Assembly: GCF_028737215.1 (NCBI RefSeq)
Contig: NZ_JAQZAM010000001.1
Span: 372,001-436,000, forward strand
Origin: Actinomycetospora chibensis
GTDB lineage: Bacteria > Actinomycetota > Actinomycetes > Mycobacteriales > Pseudonocardiaceae
Direction of reading: 5' to 3'
Length of the DNA: 64,000 nt
A program made the position numbers and the translations under genes. Shown piece after piece: positions 24,777 to 47,195 of this stretch; positions within the stretch are counted from its first letter, which is position 1; each line of letters opens with the position of its first letter. Below the pieces are notes generated by a model. The model was not told where the DNA came from. It did not search any database and saw nothing but the letters and a program-made list of their open reading frames with translations.

Positions 24777-24795
24777 CATCACCCGCATCAGATGA
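24777..24795 (-). promoter_or_regulatory. Island regulon box 1
   Basis: Read toward the gene at 24721: TCATC-N7-GGTGATG, 55 bases before the start. Matches the 12-site consensus exactly. Confidence 0.55.
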
Positions 24796-24900
24796 CGGGT
24801 GGTGGGGTAGGAGCGCGGGGCGGACGGCACGTCGCAGGGGCAGCCGTTCCCGAGGCAGGCGCGCGATCACCCGGAGCAGGACCAGCAGGTTCGGTGCGGT

Positions 24901-24925
24901 CCTCACACGGTCGGTCCTCACACGG
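24901..24925. repeat. Short direct repeat
   Basis: CCTCACACGG occurs twice with a 15-base period immediately downstream of the YrhK-like gene. Function unknown. Confidence 0.35.
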
Positions 24926-25187
24926 GGTCGGTACCGACCGCCGCCGCCACCGCCCGAGCACGCTGCCGGGACTCGTACCGCGCGAGGATCTCGCCGATCA
25001 CGCCGACGAGCAGGCCCCAGGACGCGACGACGAACAGCCACGTGCCGGCCCGGGTCAGGGCGGGAGACAGGAAGAACAGGCTGCCGATGACGAACGCGAT
25101 GTTCCCGAACAGGGCGACGCCCAGGTGGACCCAGGGGACGTCGTGGGCGTAGCGGCGGATGTGCCGGACGTAGATGAAGAGCAGCAT
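24918..25187 (-). CDS. YrhK-domain membrane protein
   Basis: 89 residues with two helices (HLGVALFGNIAFVIGSLFFL and TWLFVVASWGLLVGVIGEIL). The NIAFVIGSLFFL core resembles the YrhK-like domain. It is 24 bases downstream of the DUF3040 gene, likely in one operon under box 2. Function unknown; these small two-helix proteins recur in stress clusters. Confidence 0.65.
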   Translation of the reverse strand: MLLFIYVRHIRRYAHDVPWVHLGVALFGNIAFVIGSLFFLSPALTRAGTWLFVVASWGLLVGVIGEILARYESRQRARAVAAAVGTDPV

Positions 25188-25211
25188 GATCGCCTCTCGC
25201 TGGCCGGGTGC

Positions 25212-25532
25212 TCAGGGACCGGGGTCCGGGGCCCGCGGTCCGGGGGGTGTCAGCTCCTCACGGAGGGCCCGGGGCAGCCGGGGACGCCATCCGACCCCCA
25301 CCAGGACCCCCACCGTCAGGAGCAGGATGATCAGCGACTGACCCGGCAGCCCCAGCCACAGCAGACCGACGATCAGCAGCAGCCCCACGACCAGGACGGC
25401 GAACCGGATCCGGGCCGCGCGGCCGCCCCGACCCGACGCGCGGTGCCATCGGCGCGCGAAGGAGGGGTCGTCCGCGGCCAGGGCCCGTTCGGTCTCCGCG
25501 AGCACCGACCGTTCCGCGTCATCCAGCGGCAT
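25212..25532 (-). CDS. DUF3040 membrane protein
   Basis: 106 residues. MPLDDAERSVLAETERALAADDPSFARR at the N-terminus is the DUF3040 signature (usually MPLSEHEQ...IERAL...DP.FA), followed by two hydrophobic helices (FAVLVVGLLLIVGLLWLG, SLIILLLTVGVLVGVGW). An actinobacterial family without known function. GAGGAG before ATG 25532 fixes the start; regulon box 2 lies 86 bases upstream. Confidence 0.8.
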   Translation of the reverse strand: MPLDDAERSVLAETERALAADDPSFARRWHRASGRGGRAARIRFAVLVVGLLLIVGLLWLGLPGQSLIILLLTVGVLVGVGWRPRLPRALREELTPPGPRAPDPGP

Positions 25533-25617
25533 CGTCGACTCCTCTCCCGGCCTCACCCGGGGTCCCGCGCCAAGAGGTCCGGCGCTCCACGAGCGTCGCG
25601 TCCCGCGCCCGGACGCG

Positions 25618-25636
25618 GGTCACCCGGCGGAGATGA
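25618..25636 (-). promoter_or_regulatory. Island regulon box 2
   Basis: Toward the DUF3040 gene: TCATC-N7-GGTGACC. It lies in the gap between that gene and the ClC channel stop at 25638. Confidence 0.5.
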
Positions 25637-25637
25637 A

Positions 25638-26984
25638 TCAGGTCGCCTCCGGGGCGGGTGCGACCCGGGGGCCGGGGTCGGGCAGCCGGAGCGTCACCAC
25701 GTAGGAGACCACCACCCCGACGATCACGAGCGGCATCACGGTCAGGCCGTCGGCTCCCAGGAAGAGCGTGGCCAGCAGCACCGAGGTCAGCGGCAGGCGG
25801 AGCATCCCGACGGTCATCGCCCCCATGCCGATCGCGGCCCCGGGGAGGGCGTCGAGACCTGGCAGGTGGGCCAGCGCGGTGCCGCCGGCGGCCCCGATGA
25901 ACATCGCCGGGAACGTGGGCCCGCCGCGGAAGCCGGCCAGCGCCCCGGCGTACGCGAGTCCCTTGCACACGATCAGCAGCAGCAGCGCACCGACGCCGTA
26001 CGCGGCGGGGTCACGCAGCAGCGGGCCCAGCGCGTCCTGCCCGGAGAACAGCACCTCGCCGACGTCGTGGCCGGTGACGCCGGCGTAGAGGATGGCGAGC
26101 GCGGCGATGGCCAGGCCCAGTGCGGGGATCAGGAGCAGCGCGCGCCGGACGACCAGCGGTTTCATCCGGAGAGCGGCGTCGCGGATCACCCAGCAGAGCA
26201 GGGCCGCCACGGCACCCGCCACCACGGCCCACCCGATCCCGGCCACCGTCGGGGAGCTCGCGGCCGGCAGGTCGGACACGGCGAGGGAGAAGGTGCCGAA
26301 GCCGGTCCACGAGTCGAGACCGACGAAGACCAGGGAGCCGATCCCGGCCCCGAGCAGGCCGGGGACCAGCACCATCGTCGCCGTGGCGCCCCCGAGCCCG
26401 GCCGCCTCCATCATGAGGAAGGCGGCGGCGAGCGGGGACCCGAAGAGCGTGCTCACGGCCGCGAAGCTGCCGGTCGCCGCGACCACCGACGCGACGCTCG
26501 CGGGCACGTTCCCGCGGCGGGCGGTGCGGAGGGCGAGCACGGCGAGCCCGCCCCCGACGGCGATCAGCGGCGCTTCCGGTCCGACGACCACGCCGAGCCC
26601 GATGCTCGCGAGCGCCGCGGCGGCGATCCCGCCGAGGTCACGCCCCGCCGGGAAACCGCCGGCGTGGAAGCCGTCGGCCGGCGACTCGCCCCCGTGGCCC
26701 GGCAGGAACCGGATCACGGGGGCGACGAGCACGCCGGCGATCGTGAGCGGGACGAGCGGCCACCACAGCGGCGGGGCCGCGAAACCCAGCGCGAGGGGTG
26801 CCGTGGTGAACGCCCAGGTCTGGAGCGCCGAGGTCAGGAGGAGGAATCCGTAGGCGAGCGCCGAGATCGGCACCCCGAGCGCGGCGGCCAGCCCCAGCAT
26901 CCCGAGGTAGGGACGCGAGCGCAGGACGGCCATCGGGTCGGCGGGCCCGTCCGCGCTCGCCGGGTGCGCGACCTCAGCGGCCAC
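25638..26984 (-). CDS. ClC-family chloride channel/antiporter
   Basis: 448 residues, about ten helices. ClC selectivity segments are visible: GHGGESP, GVVVGPEAPLIAVGGG (equivalent of GREGP, keeping the gating Glu), GSPLAAAFLMMEAAG and AGFRGGPTFPAMFIGA. No CBS domains. It lies 36 bases after the DUF1269 gene, so the two are probably cotranscribed. Anion transport linked to acid or osmotic stress is the usual role. Confidence 0.85.
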   Translation of the reverse strand: MAAEVAHPASADGPADPMAVLRSRPYLGMLGLAAALGVPISALAYGFLLLTSALQTWAFTTAPLALGFAAPPLWWPLVPLTIAGVLVAPVIRFLPGHGGESPADGFHAGGFPAGRDLGGIAAAALASIGLGVVVGPEAPLIAVGGGLAVLALRTARRGNVPASVASVVAATGSFAAVSTLFGSPLAAAFLMMEAAGLGGATATMVLVPGLLGAGIGSLVFVGLDSWTGFGTFSLAVSDLPAASSPTVAGIGWAVVAGAVAALLCWVIRDAALRMKPLVVRRALLLIPALGLAIAALAILYAGVTGHDVGEVLFSGQDALGPLLRDPAAYGVGALLLLIVCKGLAYAGALAGFRGGPTFPAMFIGAAGGTALAHLPGLDALPGAAIGMGAMTVGMLRLPLTSVLLATLFLGADGLTVMPLVIVGVVVSYVVTLRLPDPGPRVAPAPEAT

Positions 26985-27020
26985 CTCGCACGTCCTCTCT
27001 CCCGGTGCCGGACCGTTCCC

Positions 27021-27518
27021 TCAGACCGCGTGCGCGTCGGAGAAGACCTCGCGGAGCTGGGCCTCCTGCTCGGTGGAGAGGTTGGTGTGCAGGAGCTCGG
27101 CGTCGACGCCGCGGAAGGCCTCGGCGACCTTGTCCCGCACCCCGTCGGAGGTCAGCGCGAACAGCGCGGACGTCCCGGGGGTGACCTTCTCCCGCACCTC
27201 CTTGATGAAGTCGTCGTCGATCCCGACGTCGGCCATCGACGCGGCCGCCGCGCCCATCGCGGCACCCACGAGGAGCCCCAGGATCGGGATGAAGAAGATC
27301 AGCCCGAAGAGCAGGCCCCAGAAGCCGCCGCCGAGGGCGCCCGAGCCGGTGAGGTTGTTCAGCTGGCGGGTCTTGGGCTTCTTGGCCCCCTCCTCCCACG
27401 ACACGATCGCACCGTCGTGCACGACGATCGACCCTTCCCGCTGGAGTCGCTCCAGGATCTCCAAGGCCTCGTCCGCTCCTGTCGCCTTCGGGAACTTCAC
27501 CGCGGTCAGAGTCGCCAT
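27021..27518 (-). CDS. DUF1269-family membrane protein
   Basis: 165 residues: an N-terminal domain (MATLTAVKFPKATGADEALE, VHDGAIVSWEEGAKKPKTRQ), a Gly-rich hydrophobic hairpin (~62-95) and a C-terminal soluble part (KVTPGTSALFALTSD). This is the DUF1269 layout, a common stress-associated family of unknown mechanism. GAGGAGGAAAG before ATG 27518 sets the start. Box 3 lies 89 bases upstream. Confidence 0.82.
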   Translation of the reverse strand: MATLTAVKFPKATGADEALEILERLQREGSIVVHDGAIVSWEEGAKKPKTRQLNNLTGSGALGGGFWGLLFGLIFFIPILGLLVGAAMGAAAASMADVGIDDDFIKEVREKVTPGTSALFALTSDGVRDKVAEAFRGVDAELLHTNLSTEQEAQLREVFSDAHAV

Positions 27519-27607: not shown

Positions 27608-27626
27608 CATCACCTCGTCGGTATGA
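27608..27626 (-). promoter_or_regulatory. Island regulon box 3
   Basis: Toward the DUF1269 gene: TCATA-N7-GGTGATG, one change from consensus. It touches the 11-base tandem repeats. Confidence 0.45.
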
Positions 27627-27627
27627 G

Positions 27628-27663: not shown

Positions 27664-27733
27664 CGGACCCGCCCTTGCGTCTCCTCCGCGACGGGGGAAG
27701 CGGTCGGTGGTGCGCGCCCCCGACGCTGGAGCG

Positions 27734-28717
27734 ATGCGCGTGGTGGCGGTGTCGGGTGCGGACATCGATCGCATGGCCGACCGGCTCTTCCTCGAGGGAC
27801 ACCGCAAGCAGTCGGCCTTCTGGGTGCTGCTGACCCTGGCGGCGATCATCGCCGGCTCCGGGGTCGTCGCCGACTCCGACGCCACGGTGATCGGGGCGAT
27901 GATCGTCGCGCCGCTGATGACCCCCATCCTCGGCACGGCCCTCGCCGTCGTCCTCGCCGACCGGTCACGCATCCTGCGCGGCGTCACCACCGTGCTCGCC
28001 GGCGCCGCCCTCGTGGTGGCGCTCGGCTTCCTGCTCGGGCTGCTCGTGCCGGAGCCGGTGGTCGCCGCCACGAACTCCCAGGTCGCCTCGCGGGTCAGCC
28101 CCGACCTCATCGACCTGGTCGCCTCCCTGGCGACCGGCCTGGTGGGCGCGTTCGCCCTGGTCCGCGACGACGTCTCGGACACGCTGCCGGGGGTCGCGAT
28201 CGCGATCTCGCTCGTCCCGCCCCTGGCCGTCGTCGGGCTGACGCTCGAGTCCGGTGAGCCCGGCCAGGCCCTCGGGGCCCTGCTGCTCTTCGCGTCGAAC
28301 GTCGCGGCGATCGTCGCCACGGGCACCGGTCTGCTCCTCGCCTACCGGCTCCGGCCGGCCGCGGAGGCGGCCGGCCGCCCGGTCGGCCGCCTCGGGCGCG
28401 GGACGATCGCGGTCGTCGCGGGCTTCGTGGTGCTCGTCGCCGTGCCGCTCGCGGCGGGCAGCTACCAGGTCTACCGCGGCACCACCACGGTTGCGGGGGT
28501 GCGACCGGTGGCCCAGCAGTGGGCGGCCGGCCGCTCCTGGCAGATCGTGACCGTGGCGGGTACCGCGGACGCGGTCCGGATCGAGGCGGTCGGCTCTCCT
28601 CCGGGCCCGGACCTCGCGCTGCTGCGCGAGGAGCTCGACCGGGCCGGCTACGGCGACGTCGCGGTCGAGGTGTCCCTCGTCGTCGGTGGGATGCAGGACC
28701 TGCCCGCCGGCGGATGA
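27734..28717 (+). CDS. DUF389 membrane protein
   Basis: 327 residues, about seven helices. WVLLTLAAIIAGSGVVADSDATVIGAMIVAPLMTPILG is the highly conserved DUF389 core, and ISLVPPLAVVGL also fits. The C-terminal ~90 residues form a small soluble alpha/beta domain. The family is widespread in actinobacteria and cyanobacteria and lacks a defined function. ATG 27734 has only a weak GGAG-like site. It converges on the potassium-channel gene nine bases away. Confidence 0.82.
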   Translation: MRVVAVSGADIDRMADRLFLEGHRKQSAFWVLLTLAAIIAGSGVVADSDATVIGAMIVAPLMTPILGTALAVVLADRSRILRGVTTVLAGAALVVALGFLLGLLVPEPVVAATNSQVASRVSPDLIDLVASLATGLVGAFALVRDDVSDTLPGVAIAISLVPPLAVVGLTLESGEPGQALGALLLFASNVAAIVATGTGLLLAYRLRPAAEAAGRPVGRLGRGTIAVVAGFVVLVAVPLAAGSYQVYRGTTTVAGVRPVAQQWAAGRSWQIVTVAGTADAVRIEAVGSPPGPDLALLREELDRAGYGDVAVEVSLVVGGMQDLPAGG

Positions 28718-28726
28718 GCCCGGTCG

Positions 28727-29279: not shown

Positions 29280-30500
29280 TCACGAGGTGACCTTCTCCGG
29301 AGGAGGCACGACCTCGTCGGCCTCACCGGCGACCTCGTCGGCCTCGTCCTCCTCCTCCGGGTCCCCCGGATCGGACCGGAGCAGGGCGTCGGCCCACCGC
29401 GCGCCCGGGTCGATGTCGACGAGCAGGGCCTTGGCCAGCAGGGTCAGCGGGACGGCCAGCAGCGCCCCGAGCCCACCCAGCACCCAGGCCCAGAACAGCA
29501 GCGTCACGAAGGTGACGGTCGCCGAGAGGCCCACCGAATCGCCGATGAAGCGGGGCTGGATGAACGATTGGATGATCACGTTGAGCAGGCAGTAGACGAC
29601 GATGACGAGGATGAACAGCGACCAGCCGCCGGTGAGCAGCGCGAGGATCGCGGGCGGGATGAGCCCGAAGATGAAGCCGATGTTCGGGATGTAGTTGGTG
29701 ATGAACGCCAGCACCCCCCACAGGATCGCGAGCGGTACGCCCATGATCTCGAGGGCGATGGTGTCGAGCACCGCGACGATCCCGCCGAACACGGTGGTGA
29801 CGAAGAGGTAGCTGCGCGTGCCGCGGGCGAAGGTGTCGAGGGCACCGACGATGTGCGGGCGGTCGCCGGCGATGCTGTCGAGCCGCTTGTCGAAGGTGGC
29901 GGCGTCGGCGATGAAGAACAGCAGCAGCGCGAGGATGAGCACGATGACGCTGGCCAGGCTCGAGACCCCCGCGAGGACGTTGCCGACGAGGCCGGCGATG
30001 GAGTTGAAGCTGATGCCCTGGGTGGCGGACTGGATCTGGGCGGGCCCGACCCCGAACCCGGCGAGTGTCTGCTTGAGGCCGTTCACCATGGCGTCGAACT
30101 GGGCGCTGTACGTGGGCAGGACGGTCGCGAGCTGGCCGACCGAGACGAACAGCACCGCGGCGAGGGCGAGCAGTCCGGCGTAGACGACGACGATCAGCGT
30201 CAGCGTGGCGGCCCAGACGGGCCACCCCCGCCGACGGGCCCACCGCTGCACCGGGTGCGCCGCGATCACGATCATCAACGCGAGGAACAGCGGTCCGATC
30301 AGCCAGGCGGTGGCCCGCATCCCGGCCACCGCGATGACGGCGGCGGCGATGCCCAGCAACAGGGTCAGCCCGCGGGGGAAGCCCCCGGGCGACACGGGTG
30401 CGGACTCCCGCTTCGTGCGGTGCCGACCGTTGGACGGCGGCGTGTGAGCGGGTGCGAGTGGGTCCGCTGAGGGCCCCACGCCTTCCAGCGGTGTGGTCAT
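29280..30500 (-). CDS. AI-2E family transporter
   Basis: 406 residues, about eight helices. ITNYIPNIGFIFGLIPPAILAL and the IIQSFIQPRFIGDSVGLSATV segment are typical of the AI-2E (PerM/TqsA) family. Members export varied small solutes or ions, some in Na+ or pH stress; the original autoinducer role is not general. An acidic C-terminal tail (EEEDEADEVAGEADEV) extends past the family core. ATG 30500 is the start; box 4 is 32 bases upstream. Confidence 0.87.
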   Translation of the reverse strand: MTTPLEGVGPSADPLAPAHTPPSNGRHRTKRESAPVSPGGFPRGLTLLLGIAAAVIAVAGMRATAWLIGPLFLALMIVIAAHPVQRWARRRGWPVWAATLTLIVVVYAGLLALAAVLFVSVGQLATVLPTYSAQFDAMVNGLKQTLAGFGVGPAQIQSATQGISFNSIAGLVGNVLAGVSSLASVIVLILALLLFFIADAATFDKRLDSIAGDRPHIVGALDTFARGTRSYLFVTTVFGGIVAVLDTIALEIMGVPLAILWGVLAFITNYIPNIGFIFGLIPPAILALLTGGWSLFILVIVVYCLLNVIIQSFIQPRFIGDSVGLSATVTFVTLLFWAWVLGGLGALLAVPLTLLAKALLVDIDPGARWADALLRSDPGDPEEEDEADEVAGEADEVVPPPEKVTS

Positions 30501-30532: not shown

Positions 30533-30551
30533 CATCACCTGGAACAGATGA
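30533..30551 (-). promoter_or_regulatory. Island regulon box 4
   Basis: Toward the AI-2E gene: TCATC-N7-GGTGATG, 32 bases before its start. Forms an inverted pair with box 5. Confidence 0.55.
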
Positions 30552-30568: not shown

Positions 30569-30587
30569 TCATCTGTTGCGGGTGACG
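30569..30587 (+). promoter_or_regulatory. Island regulon box 5
   Basis: Toward the YihY-like gene: TCATC-TGTTGCG-GGTGACG. Mirror image of box 4 across a 17-base spacer, each facing its own gene. Confidence 0.55.
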
Positions 30588-30602
30588 CCGCGCGCCGCGC
30601 CG

Positions 30603-32833: not shown

Positions 32834-32851
32834 GTCACCCGCGGAAGATGA
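32834..32851 (-). promoter_or_regulatory. Island regulon box 6
   Basis: Toward the DUF7144-like gene: TCATC-TTCCGCG-GGTGAC. On its distal side lies TCGGGACGACG, the unit repeated at 27628. Confidence 0.55.
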
Positions 32852-32894: not shown

Positions 32895-32913
32895 CCCTCC
32901 GCAGCGGGTGATG
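32895..32913 (+). promoter_or_regulatory. Island regulon box 7 (variant)
   Basis: Toward the arylsulfatase gene: CCCTC-N7-GGTGATG, 86 bases before its start. The left half is the G variant (GAGGG on the other strand), as in box 10. Confidence 0.4.
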
Positions 32914-35690: not shown

Positions 35691-38174
35691 TCAGAGGAGG
35701 CCCCGGGCCCGGGCCGCCTGCACCGCCGACCGACGGCTCTGCACCCCGAGCTTGGAGTAGATCGTCTGCACGTGGGTCTTGACGGTGCTGCGCGACACGC
35801 TCAGCGCCGCGGCGATGTCGTCCGACGACATCAGGCTCGGGAGCAGCTCGAGCACGGCGAGCTCACGGTCGGTCAGGCGCGCGTTCGCGGGGGGTTCGCC
35901 CGCGGTGCGTTGAGCGGCGCGCACCCGCGCGGCGAAGGGCTCGTCCCCCTGCTGGTGCTCCGCCAGCAGCTCCCCCACCTCCTCGCCGGCCTGGACGAAG
36001 GGCCGGACCAGGTCGAGCGGGCCCGCGGTGGCCAGCGCGGCCCGGAGGCAGCGGCGGGCGGCGGCGACGTCCCCCGCCCGGACGTCCACCGTCGCCTGCA
36101 CCACCTGCGCCTCGACGACGACGTGGGGCAGGAGCGGCACCTGGGTGCCCGCCACGATCCCGGCGACGCGGGCCGAGGCCGAGCCCGCGCGGTCCCGGTC
36201 GAGCTCGGTCCACGCGGTGAGGAGGGCGACCTCGGCCGATGCGCCGGCCCGCCCGGCGAGACCGCTCGCCCCGTCCGTGGCGCCTGCCGGGTGCCCGAGC
36301 CGCAGAGCCGCCCGGTGCTCGAACAGGGCGGCGATCGCCTCCAGGCGCGCCGGGAGCGGGTGTCCGGCGAGCTCGGTGCGCGCACGCCGGATCTCCGCCA
36401 GCCCGTCGGCGGGCTCGCCCTCGTCCGTCCGGGCCGCGCCGCCCACCACCCGCAGGGCGTAGCGCAGCGTCGGCCCCACGGTCTCGACCGGACGGCTCAG
36501 CGCGGTCTCCGTCGAGGACCGGGCGGTCTCCGGATCGCCCTGCTGGAGCGCGGCGTAGGCGTGCAGGACGTAGGCGAGGGTCACCCACGCCGACGGCTCC
36601 CACGGTGCCCGGGGAGCCGGCGCGGCGACGCCCTCCCCCAGCGCCTCGCCGCTGAGCGTCCGCGCCCCGACGTGGTCGCCCTGCACCGCAGCGACGTACG
36701 CGAGGAGAGTCCGGCACTGCACGGCCGCGAAGTCGAAACCGTGGCGGCACGCGATCCCGAGCGCGTCCTCCAGCCCGTCCCGCGCGCCGTCCAGGTCGGT
36801 GGTGAGGAGATCGCCGAGTCCCCGGTCCAGCGCCTCCAGCACGGCGAGGACCGGGCCGTCGGGCGAGCCGGCCGTGAGCACGTCGGCGACGGCCGCACGC
36901 AGCGTCCGGAGGTCCTCGGCGTCGAGGACGAGGCCGGTGCCCAGCGCGGTGGCCGCGGTCGTCGGCGCTCCCCCCGGCGGGCCCTCCCCCGGGGCCGACG
37001 CCAGGACCCGGCGCAGCGGGGCGTGGTTCCCGGTCAGGGCGAGACGCAGCGCGAACCGGTCCAGCAGCTCCGCGAGCAGCGCGGGGTCGTCCCCACGGCG
37101 GGCGTGCTCCAGGGCGGCGACGGGCGCATCCCGGGCGGCCCACCACCGCGCGGCACGGCCGTGCAGCTCGGCCGCCAGGACGGGACGGCGACGGTGGAGC
37201 TCGGCGAACAGGTACGTCCGGAGCAGCTCGAGGATGCGGTACTCGTGCTGGTCCCCGGCGAGCTCCTCGCACAGCGACGTCTCGCGCTCCAGCCGCTCGA
37301 GGACCTCGACCGCGTCCTCGCGTCCGGTGATCTCGACGGCCAGCGCCCCGGGGAGCGGGTCGGTGATGCTCGCGAGGGTCAGGAACTCGCGGATGGGCGC
37401 CGGGAGGATGTCGAGCACCTCGCCCACCAGGTAGTCGGCGACCGAGCGGTCGTCGCCCGAGAACGCCGCCAGGAAGGCCTCCGGGGACTCCGCCTTCCGC
37501 ATCGCCTGCACCGCGAGCCGGAGGCCGGCGGCCCACCCGCCCGTCTGCTGCTGCAACCGCCGGGTCTCGTCGGCGGACAGGGTCAGCCCGGCGCGCTCCG
37601 CGAGGAGGGCGGTCTCGGCGGGCGAGAAGGCGAGACGATCCGCCCGCAGGTCCCACAGCCGGCCCTCGAGCCGCAGGCGCGGGAGCGACAGCGGGGGGTC
37701 GAAGCGGCTCGACAGCAGGAGCCGCAGACCCCGGGGCCGGTACAGGACGAGCGACCGCAGCTCTCCCATCGCCGCGGCGTCACCGACCTCGTGGACGTCG
37801 TCGAGGACGAGGGTGATCGGCGGGTCCGGGACGTCGAGCGCGTCGCAGAACCGGGCGAGGAAGTCCCGGTCGTCCGCTCCCCGTGGCGGGGCGAGATCGT
37901 GCACCTCGGCGCGGGCCCCCGGGTCCCGGACCAGCGCCGCCAGGATCGCCGACCAGAGCAGGTGGGCGTCGTCGTGACGGTCCAGCGACACCCAGGCGGT
38001 CCGGGCGTGGCCGGCGGCCCACCCGGCGAGCGCGAGGGTCTTCCCGTACCCGGCGGGCGCGCTGACGAGGCCGACACCCGGCGCGTCCGGTGCGTCGAAA
38101 CCCGCGAAGAGCTCCGGGCGGTCCACGACGTCGGGGGGCACGCCCGGCACGGTCGTCTTGCGCCGAGGGATCAC
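35691..38174 (-). CDS. LAL-type LuxR regulator 1 (MalT-like)
   Basis: 827 residues: STAND/AAA-type ATPase with Walker A APAGYGKT (39-46) and Walker B LVLDD (122-126), a winged-helix and TPR-like helical middle (GGWAAGLRLAVQAM, LEALDRGLGDLL), and a C-terminal LuxR helix-turn-helix (LTDRELAVLELLPSLMSSDD; SVSRSTVKTHVQTIYSKLGV). LAL proteins such as E. coli MalT oligomerise with ATP plus an inducer and activate promoters. First of three in the island. GTG 38174; -10-like TAGCCT at 38205-38210. It converges on the sulfatase operon. Confidence 0.92.
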   Translation of the reverse strand: MIPRRKTTVPGVPPDVVDRPELFAGFDAPDAPGVGLVSAPAGYGKTLALAGWAAGHARTAWVSLDRHDDAHLLWSAILAALVRDPGARAEVHDLAPPRGADDRDFLARFCDALDVPDPPITLVLDDVHEVGDAAAMGELRSLVLYRPRGLRLLLSSRFDPPLSLPRLRLEGRLWDLRADRLAFSPAETALLAERAGLTLSADETRRLQQQTGGWAAGLRLAVQAMRKAESPEAFLAAFSGDDRSVADYLVGEVLDILPAPIREFLTLASITDPLPGALAVEITGREDAVEVLERLERETSLCEELAGDQHEYRILELLRTYLFAELHRRRPVLAAELHGRAARWWAARDAPVAALEHARRGDDPALLAELLDRFALRLALTGNHAPLRRVLASAPGEGPPGGAPTTAATALGTGLVLDAEDLRTLRAAVADVLTAGSPDGPVLAVLEALDRGLGDLLTTDLDGARDGLEDALGIACRHGFDFAAVQCRTLLAYVAAVQGDHVGARTLSGEALGEGVAAPAPRAPWEPSAWVTLAYVLHAYAALQQGDPETARSSTETALSRPVETVGPTLRYALRVVGGAARTDEGEPADGLAEIRRARTELAGHPLPARLEAIAALFEHRAALRLGHPAGATDGASGLAGRAGASAEVALLTAWTELDRDRAGSASARVAGIVAGTQVPLLPHVVVEAQVVQATVDVRAGDVAAARRCLRAALATAGPLDLVRPFVQAGEEVGELLAEHQQGDEPFAARVRAAQRTAGEPPANARLTDRELAVLELLPSLMSSDDIAAALSVSRSTVKTHVQTIYSKLGVQSRRSAVQAARARGLL

Positions 38175-39082: not shown

Positions 39083-39101
39083 CATCACCCGGACCGGAGG
39101 A
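39083..39101 (-). promoter_or_regulatory. Island regulon box 8 (G variant)
   Basis: Toward the DUF6325-like gene: TCCTC-CGGTCCG-GGTGATG. The left half is the GAGGA variant, matching the T/G degeneracy of MalT boxes. It overlaps the LAL regulator 2 stop codon. Confidence 0.45.
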
Positions 39102-41802
39102 GGTCGGGGGTCCGGAGGACGTCCGGAGTCCGGCCGGGATCCTCGGTGTCGGCGAGCAGGCCCGCGTCGTAGGCCGCGACGACGGCGGCGCGCCGGTCGT
39201 TCACCCCGAGCTTGCTGTAGATCGCGCCGACCTGGGTCTTGATCGTGTTCGGTGAGACGTGCAGGTCCTCGGCGATCTCGGTGGTGGTCGACAACGAGGG
39301 CAGGAGCCGCAGGATGGTCGCCTCCCGGTCGCTGAGGGCGGACCCGCAGGTCGAGCGGCCCCGGACACCCGCGGCCAGTGCCCTGCGCGCGAACCCATCG
39401 GCGGCGCCGAAGCTGCCGACCTGGTGCGCCAGGAGCTCCCGCACCGTCCCGGAGGCGTGCGTGAAGGGCCGCACCAGCTCGAGCGGAGCGGCACGGTCGA
39501 GGGCGTCGACCAGGAGGCGACGGGCGTGGGCCCGGTCCTGCGCCAGCTCGGCCTCACCGGCGGCGAGCAGCAGCGTCTCGACGGCGGCCTCGGGGAGCAG
39601 GGTCGGCGCCGACCCGTCGAGCACCGGACGGAGCCCCCGCTCCGGGGGACCCTTCCCGCCCTCCCCGGGCCCCCGCTCCGCGGCGACCTCGCGGGCGTCC
39701 ATGAGAGCGACCTCGCCGGTCGGGCCGAGGCGCGCGGCGAGCCAGCGCCGGACGGCCCGGGCGTGCGCGGGCCGCCCCAGCGCGACCGCGGTCTCGTGCT
39801 CGAGGATCGCCGCCATGGCGGCCTGCGGGGCCACCAGCTCCCGGTCGGCGAACGCGGTGCGCGCCGCCTGCATCTCCTCGAGGCCGTGGACGAACCGGCC
39901 CTCGTCCACGTCGGCGGCGCCGTGGACGATGTGCATGAGCAGCCTCTCGGCCGGATGCAGGCCGTCATCGGCCCTGGCGAGGAGGTCGGCCGCGTGCTGG
40001 CGGGCGTCGTCCGGCCGTCCGCGCAGGAGCGACCCGTAGGCCAGCGCCGACCGGGCGGAGACCGACCAGGCCGACCCGTCCCGTCCGCCCGGGTCGCTCG
40101 CCGCGGTGGCCGCGGTGGCCGCGATCGCCTCCCGGCCGTGCCGGACCATTCCGGAGGCGTCGCCACCCATCACGGCCGCCGTCGCGAGCAGGGCGGCGCA
40201 CTGCCGGGCGAGACGGTGGTGCCCGAGGTCGGCGGCCCGGGCGGACGCCGCCTCCAGCGTGGGGACCGCCCCGGCGCCGTCCCGGAGGACGAAGAGTCGG
40301 GTCGCGCCGTCGAGGGCCTCGGTCAGCGCGCCCCAGGCCGCGGCACGGGCGCATCGTGCCCGCTCGTCGCCGGGTGTCCGCTCGTCGCCGGGTGCCCGGG
40401 CTCCGGCCGGGTCGGCGGGCTCGACGGTGGCCGCCGCCAGGTCGGCGACGGCGCGGAGCGCGCGGAGCTCGGCCGCGTCCTCCGTCGGGGAGCCGCGCAG
40501 CGCCACCGCGGTGGCCTCCCCCACGCCGCCGTCCAGGGCCGGGAGCACGAGGCGCAGCGCCGGGTCGGCCTCCACGGTCTCGGGAGGGAGCGCCGCACAG
40601 GCCCGGCGCAGCGGCTCGCGGTCGCCGGTGAGGACGAGGGGAACGGCCCAGCCGCGGACCAGGCGGGCCAGGAGCGCGTCGTCACCCGACGCCCGGGCGT
40701 GTTCGAGGGCCTCCACGGGACGATCGTTCGCCGCGGACCACTCGGCCGCACGGACGTGGAGCCGGGCCAGGTGGGCCGGCCGCCGATCGAGCTCGCCGCG
40801 GAGCCACGCACGCAGCAGCGTCGGCATCGCGACGTGCCCGTCGCCGGGGTCGACGGCGACGAGCGAGGTCTCGCGCCCGAGCCGCTCGAGGGTCGGGACG
40901 GCGTCGTCGCGCCCGGTGAGCTCGGCGGCGAGCGACGGCCCGACGGTGGTCGCCACGCTGAGGTCCTCGAGGAGCGTGCGGTCGCCCTCGGAGAGCCCGC
41001 CCAGGACCTCGTCGCGGAAATAGGCCGCGGTCGCGCGCTCGCCCCGCGGGAACGTGGCGAGGAGCCCGGTCACCTCGACGGACCGTCGGGCGGCGGCCGC
41101 GACGAGGCCGAGCCCGGCGGCCCATCCGCCGGTCAGGGCGTGCGCCCTCTCCACCTGGCTCGACGACATCCGGGCCCCGCCCCGCGACAGCAGCGACGTC
41201 GCCTCGGTGACCGAGAAGCGCAGCCGGTCGCCGGGCAGGTCGACGACGCCACCCTCCAGGCGCAGGCGGGCCAGGGACACCGGCGGCGGAGTCCGCCCGC
41301 ACAGGACGACACGGAGGCGTGCCGGCCGGTAGCGGATCATCGCCGCCAGCTCGTCGAGCACCGCGGGGTCGGTGAGCTCCTGGACGTCGTCGAGGACGAG
41401 CCGGACCTCGTCCGGGAGCGTGTCGAGCACGGCGAGCAGACGTCCGGTGGTCAGCGGGTCGCCGGGGTCGCCCGCGAGCCCGTCCGACGACGCGACGAGA
41501 GCCTCGGCGAGGGCGGGCACGCACGCGGCGACGGCGTGGGCCACCGCGGTGGGGAGGCGCCCCGGCCGGTCGTCGGTCGGGTCGAGGGACACCCACGCCG
41601 TCGCGACGGGCGACGTCCGGGCCCAGTCGGCGAGGAGCAGCGTCTTGCCGGCGCCGGCGTGGGCTCGCAAGGTGGTCACCGGCGCCGTCGCGGCCGCCGC
41701 CTCCACCAGGTCGTTCAGGTGGTCCCGGGGGACGAACCCGGTCGGCAGCACGGGTGGGCCGACCTTCGCGGCGGGGACGCGCTGACCGGCGACGCCGACC
41801 AT
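39085..41802 (-). CDS. LAL-type LuxR regulator 2 (MalT-like)
   Basis: 905 residues. Walker A AHAGAGKT (47-54), Walker B VRLVLDDVQEL, TPR-like helical centre, C-terminal LuxR domain (LSDREATILRLLPSLSTTTE; VSPNTIKTQVGAIYSKLGV) and a short extra tail after the helix-turn-helix. Around residue 475 a short repeat GDERTPGDER reflects a local DNA duplication near 40370-40395. GTGGAGG precedes ATG 41802. Two direct CTCATCCTC repeats lie upstream (41857 and 41887). Inducer unknown. Confidence 0.92.
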   Translation of the reverse strand: MVGVAGQRVPAAKVGPPVLPTGFVPRDHLNDLVEAAAATAPVTTLRAHAGAGKTLLLADWARTSPVATAWVSLDPTDDRPGRLPTAVAHAVAACVPALAEALVASSDGLAGDPGDPLTTGRLLAVLDTLPDEVRLVLDDVQELTDPAVLDELAAMIRYRPARLRVVLCGRTPPPVSLARLRLEGGVVDLPGDRLRFSVTEATSLLSRGGARMSSSQVERAHALTGGWAAGLGLVAAAARRSVEVTGLLATFPRGERATAAYFRDEVLGGLSEGDRTLLEDLSVATTVGPSLAAELTGRDDAVPTLERLGRETSLVAVDPGDGHVAMPTLLRAWLRGELDRRPAHLARLHVRAAEWSAANDRPVEALEHARASGDDALLARLVRGWAVPLVLTGDREPLRRACAALPPETVEADPALRLVLPALDGGVGEATAVALRGSPTEDAAELRALRAVADLAAATVEPADPAGARAPGDERTPGDERARCARAAAWGALTEALDGATRLFVLRDGAGAVPTLEAASARAADLGHHRLARQCAALLATAAVMGGDASGMVRHGREAIAATAATAASDPGGRDGSAWSVSARSALAYGSLLRGRPDDARQHAADLLARADDGLHPAERLLMHIVHGAADVDEGRFVHGLEEMQAARTAFADRELVAPQAAMAAILEHETAVALGRPAHARAVRRWLAARLGPTGEVALMDAREVAAERGPGEGGKGPPERGLRPVLDGSAPTLLPEAAVETLLLAAGEAELAQDRAHARRLLVDALDRAAPLELVRPFTHASGTVRELLAHQVGSFGAADGFARRALAAGVRGRSTCGSALSDREATILRLLPSLSTTTEIAEDLHVSPNTIKTQVGAIYSKLGVNDRRAAVVAAYDAGLLADTEDPGRTPDVLRTPDLLRSG

Positions 41803-41856: not shown

Positions 41857-41897
41857 CTCATCCTCCGGAACGCGGGGTGAGAGAGACTCATCCTCGG
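41857..41897. promoter_or_regulatory. Direct MalT-box-like repeats upstream of LAL regulator 2
   Basis: CTCATCCTCCGG (41857-41868) and CTCATCCTCGG (41887-41897), 30 bases apart start to start. Read toward the LAL 2 gene this is GAGGATGAG, containing GGATGA, the MalT core. Paired direct boxes are the normal MalT arrangement. Confidence 0.5.
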
Positions 41898-41931
41898 AGC
41901 ATGAAATGAGATCCCGGAATGACCGGGCCGG

Positions 41932-44574
41932 TCAGAGGAGCCGGAGCTCCCTCGCGCGACGCACGGCCTCGCGCCGTCCGCCGACGCCGAGCTTTCGGTA
42001 GACCGTTTGCTGGTGTGTCTTCACCGTGTTGATGGAGACACTCAATTCTGCGGCGATTTCGGAGTTCCCGAGCGTGCTCGAGAGGTAACGCAGGATGACG
42101 GTTTCGCGCGGGGTGAGGGGGGTCGGTGTCCGACGTGCCGGATCCGGCGCGGGATCGAGCTGACGGCTCAGGCGGCTCATCAGCTCCACGGCGAAGGCGG
42201 CGGCGCCGGTGCCGCGCTCGATCCGCCGGCTCAGCAGCCGGCGCAGACCGTCGGCGCGGGCCGTGAGGGGCCGACGCAGCTCGTGCGGCGCCGCGGTGTG
42301 CAGTGCGCGGTCGAGCGAGCCCAGGGCCGCCTCGTCGTCGCCCCGGGCCGCGGCCGCGAGGGCCCACAGGAGGTCGGTGGCGACCTGCGTCCGCACCGTC
42401 GACGGCCCGCCGCCGAGGCCGGCGAGGAGCTGCTCGGCACCGTCGGGATCGCCCTCGAGCAGGTGCATGCCGGCCAGCGCGACGACGGCCTCGGGGGTGT
42501 CGTGCGCCTGGAGTCCCGCCAGCGCGGACCTCCCCCGGACCGGATCGTGGAGCTGCACCGCGAGCTCGGCCTGCGCGAGCAGGCTGCGGTCGAGGAGCCT
42601 CGCCGGCACGACGGACGGGGCCAGGGCCCGCGTCCTGGTCTGCAGCCCGAGCAGGGCCGCCTCCGGGTCGTTCTCGGCGCGCCGGTGGGCCCGCAGCACG
42701 GCCATGGTCAGCGCGACGTGCGGTTCGGGCGCCGCGGCCGCGACCTCCTCGGCCTTCCGCAGCCACGGGTCGACCTCGGAGAGCTCCCCGCTGTCGAGGT
42801 GCGCCCAGGCCAGGGCCAGGTAGGCCGAGACCACCTGGATGGTCGGCGCCGATCCGGTCGCCGTCGCCCGGGCCACGACCGCGCGGGCCTCGGTCCGCGC
42901 GAGCGTCAGATGTCCCCGTGCGCACTCCAACAGGGCCAGCTGCGCCAGGGCGTTCACCCGTGGCAGCACGAGCCCGACCGCGGGCTCCGCCTCGGTCGCG
43001 GCGCGCAGGTGGACCTCCGCGGCATCGAGCTCGCCCAGCCACAGCTCCGCGGTGCCCTGGTTGCTGAGCGTGAGAACGCGGACGAGGTCCCAGCCCGCCA
43101 GACCCAGCTCCGCGAGCTCGCCGGGATCGAGGGGGATGCGCCGACACGCCGCCGCGAGCCCGTCGAGGTCGCCGCGCAGGCGCGCGTCGGCGAGGGCGAT
43201 CAGGTCCAGCACCAGGCGGACCCGGCGCGCGCGGGGCGCCGGGAGCGCCTCGAGCCGCGCCTCGGCCGCGCCGATCAGGTCCGCGAGCTCCTCGTCGCGC
43301 CCGTACACCATCCGGGCGCCCGCGAGCCCGGCCGCGAGCTCGGGGTGGGCGAGCAACGCGTCGCGGGGCACGGCGGCGAGCATCGTGTCCAGCTCCCGGC
43401 CCCGGCCCCGGAGCACGAGCCCGACGTCGTGGACGCCGACGAGCTCGGCGGCGAGCGGGAGCAGACCGCCGGCGAGGGCGAGGCGGATCGCCGCCTCGGG
43501 CAGGGACCGACGCCGGTACCACTCCGCGGCCCGTCGGTACAGGTCACGGCGGGCTCGTGGCTCGACCATCCGGCTGCGCAGGACGTCGGTCACGAACCCC
43601 GGGAGGCGGAACCACCGTCCGCCCTCCCCCACGGCCTGCACGAACAGGTTCGACGCCGACAGCTCGGCCAGCATCGCGGCGCCGTCGTCGTCGCCGGTCA
43701 CCGCGTCGGCGAGCTCGGCGCAGACCAGGTCGAGGATGCAGATCTTCTCGAGGAACCGCAGGACGCGCTCCGACTGCGGTTCGAGGACCTCGCTCTGCAG
43801 GTAGGCCGTCACCGTGCGGTCGTCACCGGAGAACGACGCGAGGAAGCTCGCGACGTCCGCGCCGGGGGCCCGGAGCGGCAGCGCGGCCAGCCGCAGACCG
43901 GCGGCCCAGCCGTCGGTCCGCCGGACCAGGAGCTCGAGCTGGTCGGTGGTGAGCTCCACGCCGACGAGGGCGAACAGCTCCCGGGCCTCGGGCGGCACGA
44001 AGGCCAGGTCGGAGGCGCGTACCTCGGCGAGCAGCCCGGCGAGCCGCAACCGGTGCAGCGGCCACGGCGGGTCGCGGCGGGTGAGCACCACCAGGCGCAC
44101 CCCCTCAGGGGGTGCCGTGATCCACCGATGCAGCCCGGTCCACACCTCGGGCGAGGTGATCTGGTGGACCTCGTCGAGCACGAGGACGGCCGGTCCCACG
44201 ACGTGGCGCACGGCGTCGGCCACACGGTCGGCGAGGTCCGTGCCGGACCGGTCGTCGGCGACGCGGCGCAGGAGGGCGTCCGCCGGTGCGCCCACGACCG
44301 CCGCCAGGGACGTCGCGACGGCCCGCCAGAAGGTGTCGGGGGTGTCGTCGGCGGGGCCCACCGTCAGCCAGGCGGGACGCTCGACCGCCCGCGCGCCGAG
44401 CCAGGAGGCGAGGAGCACCGTCTTGCCCCACCCCGCGGAGGCGGACACGAGGGTGACGGGTGATTCCGCGCCGAGATCGAGGAGGTCGTACAGACGCGGG
44501 CGGTCGACGACGTGCAAGGCCACGGGAACGGAGTACTTCACGTCGGGGTGCGTGGCGGAAACGTCGGCGGGCAT
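41932..44574 (-). CDS. LAL-type LuxR regulator 3 (MalT-like)
   Basis: 880 residues. Walker A SASAGWGKT (44-52), Walker B AVLVLDEVHQI, a long TPR-like region (LGELDAAEVHLRAATEAEP, ALAWAHLDSGELSE) and C-terminal LuxR domain (LTPRETVILRYLSSTLGNSE; VSINTVKTHQQTVYRKLGV). The DExH-like DEVH Walker B is the usual MalT form. It lies head-to-tail with LAL regulator 2. ATG 44574 is chosen; GTG 44580 is also in frame. CTCATCC at 44599-44605 is a further MalT-core match upstream. Confidence 0.92.
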   Translation of the reverse strand: MPADVSATHPDVKYSVPVALHVVDRPRLYDLLDLGAESPVTLVSASAGWGKTVLLASWLGARAVERPAWLTVGPADDTPDTFWRAVATSLAAVVGAPADALLRRVADDRSGTDLADRVADAVRHVVGPAVLVLDEVHQITSPEVWTGLHRWITAPPEGVRLVVLTRRDPPWPLHRLRLAGLLAEVRASDLAFVPPEARELFALVGVELTTDQLELLVRRTDGWAAGLRLAALPLRAPGADVASFLASFSGDDRTVTAYLQSEVLEPQSERVLRFLEKICILDLVCAELADAVTGDDDGAAMLAELSASNLFVQAVGEGGRWFRLPGFVTDVLRSRMVEPRARRDLYRRAAEWYRRRSLPEAAIRLALAGGLLPLAAELVGVHDVGLVLRGRGRELDTMLAAVPRDALLAHPELAAGLAGARMVYGRDEELADLIGAAEARLEALPAPRARRVRLVLDLIALADARLRGDLDGLAAACRRIPLDPGELAELGLAGWDLVRVLTLSNQGTAELWLGELDAAEVHLRAATEAEPAVGLVLPRVNALAQLALLECARGHLTLARTEARAVVARATATGSAPTIQVVSAYLALAWAHLDSGELSEVDPWLRKAEEVAAAAPEPHVALTMAVLRAHRRAENDPEAALLGLQTRTRALAPSVVPARLLDRSLLAQAELAVQLHDPVRGRSALAGLQAHDTPEAVVALAGMHLLEGDPDGAEQLLAGLGGGPSTVRTQVATDLLWALAAAARGDDEAALGSLDRALHTAAPHELRRPLTARADGLRRLLSRRIERGTGAAAFAVELMSRLSRQLDPAPDPARRTPTPLTPRETVILRYLSSTLGNSEIAAELSVSINTVKTHQQTVYRKLGVGGRREAVRRARELRLL

Positions 44575-44598
44575 CGTCACCCCCGACCTCGGAAGCCT

Positions 44599-44605
44599 CT
44601 CATCC
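44599..44605. promoter_or_regulatory. MalT-core match upstream of LAL regulator 3
   Basis: CTCATCC (GGATGAG on the other strand), 25 bases before the LAL 3 start. Single and short; given because it repeats the 41857 and 41887 sites. Confidence 0.35.
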
Positions 44606-44619
44606 TGCACACGACAGTA

Positions 44620-44638
44620 TCATTCTCGCGGGGTGACT
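44620..44638 (+). promoter_or_regulatory. Island regulon box 9
   Basis: Toward the GAP-family gene: TCATT-CTCGCGG-GGTGACT, one change from consensus. It is far (about 190 bases) from the start, but box 10 lies closer. Confidence 0.4.
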
Positions 44639-44787
44639 CGGCGCGCCAGAATGTCGTGCACCATTCAAGGAGCCTTCTCGGATCATCGGGCGCCGCTGTC
44701 CGGCGCAGGAAATGGCCGCGAACCCCGAGAATTGATTCCGGACGGTGTCGGGACGGTCTCTCTCGGTGGCCCTCCCGGGCACCACCC

Positions 44788-44806
44788 CCCTCCTCCCGGG
44801 GTGATG
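44788..44806 (+). promoter_or_regulatory. Island regulon box 10 (variant)
   Basis: Toward the GAP-family gene: CCCTC-CTCCCGG-GGTGATG. It overlaps ATG 44804, so translation probably begins further in. Confidence 0.4.
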
Positions 44807-44830
44807 CCGGCGGACGCGGGTGGTGCGAGC

Positions 44831-45511
44831 GTGCGCCCGGTGAGCGTCGACGTCATCGTGCTGGGCCTGGCGAGCGTGGTCCGTCCGACGTCCGTCGCCG
44901 CGGTGTACGCGTTCCTCGCGGCCCGGTCCCCGACGCCCCTGCTGCTGGCCTACATCCTCGCGGGCCTCGCGCTCAGCCTGTCGGTCGGCGTCGCCGCGGT
45001 GACGATCGTCCACGTCAGTCCCCCGCCCCCGACGGTGACCAGCACGGGCCGCTCCGTCGCCTACCTCGTGCTCGGGGCCGGGTCGGTGGGGATGGCGCTG
45101 TACTACGCGTTCCGGGATCCGCCCGACCGTCCGGCGAGGGAGCGCCCGGCCCGCCCGCCGGGTGCGTTGCGGCGGCGCCTCGCCCAGCCGACCGTCACGA
45201 ACGCCGCGGTGGCGGGGCTGGCCACCCACCTGCCGGGCGTCTTCTACCTGGGCGCACTCGCCGCGATCGTGGCCGACCGGCCCGGCCTCGTCAGCGGTCT
45301 GCTCCAGGTCGGTGCGTACAACCTGCTCTGGTACGCGGTGCCGCTGGCCGCCCTGGCGTCCTGGACCTGGCACCCCGAGACCACACGTGACAGCGCGGCG
45401 CGCCTGACCTCCTGGGTCCAGGCCCACAAGAAGCACCTCATCGTCACGGTGTTCGTCCTCGTCGGCGCCTACCTCGTGGTCGTCGGGGTCGTCGACCTGG
45501 CCACCGGGTGA
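44831..45511 (+). CDS. GAP-family (SfLAP-like) membrane protein
   Basis: About 226 residues, six helices. SVDVIVLGLASVVRPTSVAAVYAFL and LLLAYILAGLALSLSVG correspond to helices 1-2 of GAP/SfLAP proteins, as in the gene at 2267; the middle carries a basic Pro/Arg loop. Starts at GTG 44831 or GTG 44840 are preferred over ATG 44804, which lies within box 10. Neither has a strong ribosome site. The transported lipid or solute is unknown. Confidence 0.7.
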   Translation: MRPVSVDVIVLGLASVVRPTSVAAVYAFLAARSPTPLLLAYILAGLALSLSVGVAAVTIVHVSPPPPTVTSTGRSVAYLVLGAGSVGMALYYAFRDPPDRPARERPARPPGALRRRLAQPTVTNAAVAGLATHLPGVFYLGALAAIVADRPGLVSGLLQVGAYNLLWYAVPLAALASWTWHPETTRDSAARLTSWVQAHKKHLIVTVFVLVGAYLVVVGVVDLATG

Positions 45512-45566
45512 GAGGGTGCCCCTCGTGCGTGGGGGTGGGGTTCCTGGTGCTCGTCGGCGGGATCGG

Positions 45567-46247: not shown

Positions 46248-46254
46248 CGGGGTC

Positions 46255-46461
46255 CTAGGGCACCACGCGGTGGAACGACGTCACCTCGAGCCCCAGGGAC
46301 CGGCAGAGCGCGAGGAGCCCGTGGAGGCCGGACTCGTCGACCACGTCCGTGGAGATCACGGTCTCGGCCGGGACGACGTCGATCGTCGTGTCGGGGAACG
46401 CGTCGCGCGCCCGCTCCGAGAGCCGGCCCGCCACCCTCAGCTCGTACCGGTACCCGTCCAC
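46255..46461 (-). CDS. Small soluble protein of unknown function
   Basis: 68 residues, YELRVAGRLSERARDAFPDT...VISTDVVDESGLHGLLALCRSLGLEVTSFHRV. The strand-helix-strand order resembles the small ACT-like or BON-like alpha/beta proteins seen in stress clusters, but I do not recognise the family. GTG 46461 is one base from the stop of the LapA-like gene, so it is second in that operon. Confidence 0.6.
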   Translation of the reverse strand: MDGYRYELRVAGRLSERARDAFPDTTIDVVPAETVISTDVVDESGLHGLLALCRSLGLEVTSFHRVVP

Positions 46462-46462
46462 C

Positions 46463-46756
46463 TCAGTCCCGCCGTTCGGCCCGGCGGTCCGCGCGGCGCC
46501 GGTGACGGCGCATCACACCGACGCCGAACCAGATCAGCGCCCCGACGAGCGCCGTCACCACGGTGAACAGCCAGAGCGGCCAGGTGAAGCTCCAGAACAG
46601 GAACGTCAGCGTGATGCGTTCGGTGTTCTGGATCATGAAGATGACGAGCAGACCCACCCCGACGAGCGAGGCGATCGCCCCGGCGCCGAGCCGGGCTCCT
46701 CCTCCCCGAGCTCCCCCGGCACCGCCCGCGGTGGCGCCGGAATGTTGCTGGACCAT
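46463..46756 (-). CDS. LapA-domain membrane protein
   Basis: 97 residues with a Gly/Ala-rich head and two helices. VGLLVIFMIQNTERITLTFLFWSFTWPLWL matches the LapA (DUF1049) pattern, where IQN and FLFWSFxxPL are conserved. In other bacteria LapA works in lipopolysaccharide or envelope assembly; its actinobacterial role is unknown. Box 11 lies 67 bases upstream of ATG 46756. Confidence 0.82.
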   Translation of the reverse strand: MVQQHSGATAGGAGGARGGGARLGAGAIASLVGVGLLVIFMIQNTERITLTFLFWSFTWPLWLFTVVTALVGALIWFGVGVMRRHRRRADRRAERRD

Positions 46757-46823
46757 GGGACGTCCTCCGGGCGGCCGTGACGATGGGGGCCACCGGAGCG
46801 TGGCGCGACCGCCGGGGCCGTGG

Positions 46824-46842
46824 CATCACCCGGCCGGGATGA
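46824..46842 (-). promoter_or_regulatory. Island regulon box 11
   Basis: Toward the LapA-like gene: TCATC-CCGGCCG-GGTGATG. Exact consensus. Confidence 0.55.
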
Positions 46843-46868
46843 CGTGGGTGCACGCCCGCCCGCGCCGC

Positions 46869-47144
46869 TCATGCCATGGCTCGGCGCCGTCGGTAGGCAC
46901 CGCCGCCCGCGTAGCTCGAGAGGTCGACCAGCAGCGCCAGCGCCAGGAACAGGAAGTCGAGGCCGACGACACCACCGGGCGCCACGAGGAAGTAGGTCAG
47001 CGTCGTCCAGGGCAGGAAGAGGAACCCCAGGACCGGGACCAGGAACGTTCCGAAGACGGCACTCCACTGCAGCGGCGAGACCAATGCCCACACGAGGATG
47101 ACCGCTCGCGGCCCGATGAGCAGCAGGATGATGAACAGGCACAT
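46869..47144 (-). CDS. Small membrane protein of unknown function
   Basis: 91 residues with three hydrophobic segments (LFIILLLIGPRAVILVWALV, FGTFLVPVLGFLFLPWTTLTYFLV, GLDFLFLALALLVDL) and a basic tail. PWTTLTYFLVAPGGVVGLDFLFLALALLVDLSSY occurs in short actinobacterial membrane proteins without a function. Box 12 lies 32 bases upstream of ATG 47144. Confidence 0.65.
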   Translation of the reverse strand: MCLFIILLLIGPRAVILVWALVSPLQWSAVFGTFLVPVLGFLFLPWTTLTYFLVAPGGVVGLDFLFLALALLVDLSSYAGGGAYRRRRAMA

Positions 47145-47176
47145 GCCGTCTTCGTAGACAGTCCCGCCGCATCGGT

Positions 47177-47195
47177 CCCCACCCCGCGGGGATGA
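47177..47195 (-). promoter_or_regulatory. Island regulon box 12 (imperfect)
   Basis: Toward the gene at 47144: TCATC-CCCGCGG-GGTGGGG, a partial right half. The distal side reads GGGGATGAG, close to the full MalT box. CGGGACGAC follows. Confidence 0.4.

Follow-up and report, generated by a model that had tools for sequence, protein, structure and literature searches.

A 17-bp palindrome ahead of the genes of a MalT-type LAL island in Actinomycetospora chibensis, and its probable role as a LAL operator

In this paper we describe a short box that recurs ahead of genes in a 64,000-nucleotide stretch of the Actinomycetospora chibensis genome (assembly GCF_028737215.1, contig NZ_JAQZAM010000001.1, positions 372,001 to 436,000), which we call the window and whose positions are counted from its first letter. 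LAL regulators, the large ATP-binding members of the LuxR family, are common in actinomycetes, and to our knowledge few of them have a known operator. Three MalT-like LAL genes lie in the island that carries the box, all on the minus strand: LAL1 (35691..38174, 827 aa, with ATPase, TPR and GerE helix-turn-helix (HTH) domains), LAL2 (39085..41802, 905 aa) and LAL3 (41932..44574, 880 aa). In the LAL tree, LAL3 forms a clade separate from the other two. A solved structure of MalT, chain 8bob_C, is matched by LAL1 at E 1.6e-34, and the island LALs stay below the cut-off of PRK04841.1, the NCBIfam equivalog model for enterobacterial MalT (242, 188.5 and 233.6 vs 537 bits). The host genome has eight near-full-length LAL genes.

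The preliminary description of the window listed 12 copies of the box, all of which we found again at their positions. With at most two mismatches the total rises to 14, the additions being 22796 (+) and 41888 (-). A -10-like element, ANNNT, starts at box position 41 in ten of the 14 sites and at 40 to 42 in 13, and we give its position below only where it differs from 41. For comparison we use the related islands of A. callitridis (loci L046, L051 and L101 in our numbering) and A. endophytica (L045). The leftmost box, TCATCC-N5-GGGTGA (22796..22812, +), lies beyond the block reported earlier, ahead of an MFS transporter gene (22910-24412), and is kept in L046. The box at 24779..24795 (-) precedes a small membrane protein gene (24428-24721), and the same 17-bp box stands ahead of its L045 homologue. 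Further boxes precede the DUF3040 (25212-25532) and YrhK (24918-25187) genes (25620..25636, -) and the DUF1269 gene at 27021-27518 (27610..27626, -), and the homologues of both units are boxed in L045 and L046. The box of the AI-2E family transporter gene (30535..30551, -; gene 29280-30395; ANNNT at 40) forms a divergent promoter with 30569..30585 (+), which leads a gene without clear family called at 30582-31544, whose true start should lie further downstream; homologues of both genes are boxed in L046. The DUF7144 gene (32253-32732) is preceded by 32835..32851 (-), and the sulfatase gene (33000-35366) by 32895..32911 (+), with CCCTCC as its left half; sulfatase homologues are boxed in L087, L089, L090, L099 and L100.

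Two boxes concern the regulators themselves. The first (39085..39101, -; ANNNT at 42) overlies the 3' end of LAL2 and precedes the genes for DUF6325 (38569-39009), SHOCT (38223-38534) and LAL1, which we take as one operon because of their spacing; it is kept in L101. The second, TCATGC-N5-GGATGA (41888..41904, -), is the box of LAL2 and was missed in the preliminary description; the aligned site in L051 shares 11 of 12 core bases. The SfLAP gene (44840-45511) has a distal box (44620..44636, +), kept in L051, and a proximal one with left half CCCTCC (44788..44804, +), to which a weaker box at position 5214 of L051 corresponds. The box at 46826..46842 (-; ANNNT at 42) leads a LapA-domain gene (46463-46756) followed by a gene for a 68-aa protein (46255-46461), and the weakest box, TCATCC-N5-GGGTGG (47179..47195, -), stands ahead of a 91-aa gene (46869-47144) and has no ANNNT at 40 to 42; both are kept in L051. 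A degenerate candidate at 27682-27698 (+), with two mismatches, ANNNT at 42 and a DUF389 gene (27740-28717) 41 bp downstream, was left out of the 14. At 20651-22793 a nicotianamine-synthase-like gene lies near a ferric-reductase-like membrane protein gene, possibly a pair for metal uptake.

Aligned, the window sites form an imperfect 17-bp palindrome, TCATCC-N5-GGGTGA. For SARP-LAL regulators, heptameric direct repeats have reportedly been described. A loose pattern with up to three mismatches is not above chance in the window (90 matches vs 110.93 expected). A weight matrix, trained on the same 12 sites that it scores, finds 13 matches of at least 15 bits, namely the 12 boxes and 22796, against a mean of 0.6 and a maximum of 4 in 30 dinucleotide-shuffled windows. 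When each site is left out in turn, 11 of the 12 still score 15.1-28.3, and the weakest, 47179, scores 7.6. All sites except 39085 lie outside called genes (13 of 14, vs 10.8% of positions; p ~3e-12). The claim that each box faces its gene is borne out by all 14 sites. Our gene calls come from an in-house script, with approximate start codons and gaps, and the distances between boxes and genes are therefore approximate too. Among the 13 sites analysed first, nine have ANNNT at 41, compared with a mean of 0.23 for each other offset (p ~1e-13). Since ANNNT starts at about 41, the box overlies the -35 region, the place taken by class II activators, and transcription is expected to start about 35 nt past the box.

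The two half-sites are unequal: position 4 is T and position 14 is G in 13 of the 14 sites, 41888 being the exception. A tally restricted to sites with a -10 on the same strand also gives 13 of 14 for the window, with the candidate at 27682 in place of 47179, which lacks the -10. Among sites with a -10 on the strand in question, the T4/G14 form accounts for eight of nine in L045, eight of eight in L046 and two of four in L051. Other islands of Actinomycetospora often show the reverse form (C4/A14) or symmetric ones, so the fixed direction looks like a property of this clade. The preliminary description had all boxes in the same orientation and regarded random orientation outside the window as evidence against its reading; the uniform orientation stands for this window, and the half-site orientation elsewhere is indeed mixed, which bears out that concern in part. 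It looks as if the half-site direction is clade-specific and the -10 sets direction everywhere. We had considered whether a serine-for-asparagine exchange in the recognition helix of LAL1 might cause the asymmetry and found no support for it: Pseudonocardia loci with the same serine (L124, L125, L162 and L174) have mixed or few boxes.

In A. callitridis the box aligns at 13 of the 14 promoters; the remaining one, that of the small membrane protein gene, has no aligned box there, and no homologue of the gene was recognised in L046. In A. endophytica two of the 14 align well, and boxes stand ahead of homologues of LAL1 and of the SfLAP, DUF6325, DUF3040, DUF1269, DUF7144 and small membrane protein genes.

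The link to LAL genes was examined in 77 loci from named genomes, fetched by LAL protein alignment alone (the best 80 of 476 confirmed matches); they cover 15 named genera, and 17 of the loci are from Actinomycetospora. With at most one mismatch the palindrome occurs in 72 of the 77, at 336 sites, and in 55 of the 60 loci outside Actinomycetospora. The right-half forms GGATGA and GGGTGA are both present in other genera. Exact sites number 126 at spacer 5, nine at spacer 0 and 0-3 at each of the other ten spacers between 1 and 11, and with one mismatch allowed the 336 sites at spacer 5 compare with 13-51 at the other eleven spacers (0-11). Exact sites reach a density of ~81/Mb in the LAL loci (126 in 1.56 Mb) vs ~2/Mb in the host genome (13 in 6.18 Mb). 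The -10 spacing recurs as well: for 669 strand instances ANNNT is found 211 times at 41, 109 times at 42 and 2-18 times at each of the remaining offsets between 20 and 55. Such a fixed distance to a -10-like element, read in a single direction, might also suggest that box and -10 together are the promoter of an alternative sigma factor. We regard this as the least probable of the readings considered, close to negligible, as the box is a palindrome with two 6-bp halves ending 34 and 23 nt ahead of ANNNT and tracks LAL genes in loci that were picked for LAL alone. Directly ahead of genes of more than 766 aa we find 16 boxes, and in eight cases (L102, L119, L120, L130, L141, L158, L169 and L173) the gene overlaps the LAL match by which the locus was fetched, so that predicted LAL autoregulation recurs.

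The length of the spacer also bears on a different kind of binder, a BldM-type atypical response regulator in place of a LAL; BldM carries a LuxR-type HTH. Streptomyces BldM homodimers bind TCACcC-N4-GgGTGA, with the group I palindrome TCACcCgnncGgGTGA, so that the half-sites TCACCC/GGGTGA are nearly identical to those of our box, but the BldM sites are 16 bp long with spacer 4, and BldM is a regulator with developmental targets and not a LAL (PMC4125116). In the LAL loci spacer 4 stays at background, with one exact site and 20 with up to one mismatch. When the -10 is attached, the host genome has 17 sites at spacer 5 vs none at spacer 4, and the genus (18 genomes) 140 vs 26. Furthermore, the two LAL islands on contig C11 contain none of the 50 listed spacer-4 sites (of 51 in the host). 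We therefore think it very unlikely that a BldM-type regulator binds the box.

The preliminary description placed the box in the stress-island block only, and this has to be given up: besides 22796, the box is found elsewhere in the host genome, including another LAL island. There are 13 exact palindromes in the genome, and 12 of them lie outside genes, which is not the equal frequency in non-promoter sequence that would speak against the earlier reading. Two are in the window, and four lie no more than 20 kb from the LAL gene at C11:220558 in a second island, ~190 kb away. Five others lead genes for an alkylsulfatase (C16), a second sulfatase (C33:187651), a CAAX-protease-like protein (C33:170784), a Na/H exchanger (C55) and an MFS protein (C9); of the last two, the one on C18 leads a gene without Pfam match and the one on C52 is inside a gene. 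From these positions the box is concentrated in LAL islands and not restricted to one. Beyond the genus, in 196 other genomes of the class, the exact class-wide box with -10 occurs 157 times at spacer 5 vs 55 times at spacer 6, palindromes flanked on both sides by a -10 being counted twice; 18 genomes have at least four such sites at spacer 5, and no genome has as many at spacer 6. The -10 is weak at five sites that belong to other families of the order (L053-L057), with one at 41 and two at 42.

Some further sites are recorded here as observations in their own right. Another host LAL gene (C22:322159, in L093, which is G000:C22:314001-334000) is flanked by variant boxes TCATCC-N5-GCATGA at C22:320107 and 326498, and is possibly a paralogue with shifted specificity; one variant box in L093 stands directly ahead of an alkylsulfatase gene, whose called start is too close to the box. 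L002 and L052, from the host and A. callitridis, each have a strong box 26-31 bp ahead of an 807-aa gene, an HrpB helicase in the host, with the box facing away from it; the A. callitridis copy has no called same-strand gene within the next 3.9 kb. In a genome from another family of the order (G060, L056 and L057) the box stands ahead of a gene for a pyridoxal-dependent decarboxylase, which adjoins an SfLAP-like gene, and also ahead of a GMC oxidoreductase gene divergent from that of cytochrome bd subunit I.

Turning to the genes behind the boxes, oriented boxes in the 77 loci lead 276 distinct genes, and we kept the 182 that lie outside Actinomycetospora, are complete in their locus and encode at most 700 aa (six longer ones were dropped). 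Window genes are matched by 101 of the 182: DUF7144, the commonest box-led family in other genera, 27 times, the 68-aa family 25, DUF1269 18, AI-2E 11, DUF6325 8, MFS 6 and others 6. The 68-aa family, represented in the window by the minus-strand gene at 46255-46461, is thus the second commonest first gene behind a box in other genera; it has the consensus RYExRVxGRLS...LHGxLAxxxSLGLxVVS and no match in Pfam or NCBIfam. A Pfam scan of 78 of the remaining 81 genes (those of at least 45 aa) gave 30 families, 25 of them among the matches listed, with SulP 9 times, DUF2252 8, NUDIX, DAGK and SHOCT 6 each, DUF308 5 and GH15 4, and with one case each of arginine deiminase, glutaminase and PPK2. This content suits an ion-, envelope- and energy-related response; the stress role given to the island earlier is a guess from gene content. 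In the host, four sulfatase-type genes stand behind boxes, two sulfatases and two alkylsulfatases (L178, L004, L093 and window 33000-35366), and SulP transporters are frequent among the box-led genes of other genera, making an organosulfur theme possible.

Putting these results together, we consider it very probable that a MalT-type LAL activator encoded in the island uses the box as its operator, LAL1 and its relatives being the simplest candidates. The earlier suggestion of a regulatory box has held, and a LAL-family binder is likely in view of the palindrome in 72 of 77 LAL loci and of the precedent in Actinoplanes discussed below. Within the genus (18 genomes), LAL1 similarity correlates with box count (rho 0.71, p 0.001). 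Two 20-kb stretches with a single recognised LAL each, L085 and L091, also carry boxes, so a single LAL may suffice, and the proposal that one regulator controls the whole island is plausible, although the island encodes three LALs. As we picture it, the active LAL, probably bound to a ligand and ATP like MalT, would bind the 17-bp palindrome TCAYCC-N5-GGRTGA; the bound box would end ~35 nt ahead of the start and cover the -35, and the LAL would recruit RNA polymerase where a -10 is usable. Direction would be set by the one-sided -10 and, in this clade, also by TCATCC on the distal side and GGGTGA next to the -10. LAL2 has its own box and LAL1 is served by that of the DUF6325 operon, so a self-amplifying loop is to be expected.

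Lying over the -35, a palindrome could also keep polymerase out, and the box might then be a repressor operator that silences the island until a signal arrives; the LAL protein SCO6993 has been described as a repressor (PMC9628970). The published Actinoplanes homologue, MalT (ACSP50_3915), is by contrast an activator according to deletion and overexpression data, its deletion lowering 42 of 51 genes (PMC7567727). A TTGAC at box positions 14-26 is found in none of 285 oriented promoters, a weak point, as most letters as far as position 17 are dictated by the box. On balance repression appears very improbable to us.

Several observations weigh against this reading. No box was found in five of the 77 LAL loci (L122, L126, L149, L176 and L177), and the number of exact sites falls off only weakly away from the LAL gene (23, 11, 15, 4 and 12 per successive 2-kb bin in 38 other-genus loci with full flanks). 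Outside the genus, the correlation between LAL1 and the box is not significant (rho 0.19, p 0.22). With at most one mismatch, the whole host genome has nearly as many sites at spacer 4 as at spacer 5 (51 vs 55); single-mismatch sites away from LAL genes are therefore not credible without a -10, and what stands out in the host is limited to exact sites, those with a -10 and those near LAL genes. For the same reason counts of the reversed pattern proved too lenient a background, and we used spacer controls instead. Elsewhere in the order, the genus-tuned pattern with -10 (at most one mismatch) shows no excess (103 vs 161 at spacer 4 in 43 genomes from other genera) and so carries no signal there. 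Compared with A. callitridis, the box core exceeds its flanks in conservation only somewhat (160/166 vs 1382/1536 bases, with the unaligned case counted in). Finally, 13 of the 14 window sites have a right half resembling GGGTGA, whereas the Actinoplanes motif has GGATGA (PMC7567727).

What is new here is the breadth of the LAL-box pairing, the one-directional asymmetry of the half-sites in the clade and a regulon that extends beyond the island. A broader proposal, which we hold in even balance, is that TCAYCC-N5-GGRTGA, the fixed -10 and MalT-type LALs form a single code that serves movable islands with ion, envelope, sulfatase and polyphosphate genes throughout the class Actinomycetes, one spacer base away from BldM and with a direction fixed by unequal half-sites in the present clade. 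The pairing gives many uncharacterised LALs a candidate operator and a predicted target list, and the island signal can be addressed by promoter fusion in any of the 15 named genera. The gap of one base to the BldM sites allows a direct test of what keeps regulators with similar half-sites separate.

Among known systems, enterobacterial MalT shares with ours the protein family, the overlap with the -35 and, on the other strand, the left half GGATGA; its box in E. coli and Klebsiella is GGGGA(T/G)GAGG, as quoted in PMC7567727, and consists of repeats of an asymmetric hexamer, whereas ours is a palindrome. No maltose family is among the Pfam matches of the island genes. For one LAL protein it is stated that no consensus operator could be predicted (PMC9628970). 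In the open-licence literature we found nothing that carries the Actinoplanes-type MalT box system beyond Micromonosporaceae, and nothing relevant on LuxR proteins in Pseudonocardia or Actinomycetospora. The closest system is that of Actinoplanes sp. SE50/110, in which a MalT-controlled large genomic region (MRLGR, ACSP50_3900-3950) comprises 51 genes and the motif TCATCC-5nt-GGATGA lies over the -35 ahead of 17 starts, 34.4 +/- 1.0 nt away; the motif was also seen in four other Micromonosporaceae (Droste et al. 2020; PMC7567727). Both regions have LAL genes inside them and 6-bp halves with a 5-nt spacer ahead of many operons of mostly poorly annotated genes, and they share the left half and the position over the -35; for our island, ANNNT at 40 to 42 in 13 of 14 sites predicts a distance of about 35 nt to the start. 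Higher expression on maltose than on glucose is among the marks of regions of the Actinoplanes type. As in MRLGR-type regions, a LAL with ATPase and GerE HTH is encoded in the island, with the invariant residues G42, G44, K45 and T46. The Actinoplanes region has two LAL genes and ours three, and the regulators are likened by family and arrangement. The gene content differs, with ion channels, CLC, sulfatase, DUF1269, DUF7144 and SfLAP in our island; the arginine deiminase of the MRLGR and the PPK2 of like regions in relatives of SE50/110 (not in SE50/110 itself) each have their single boxed counterpart among the 78 scanned genes of other genera. We read the island as a member of the Actinoplanes MalT system outside Micromonosporaceae.

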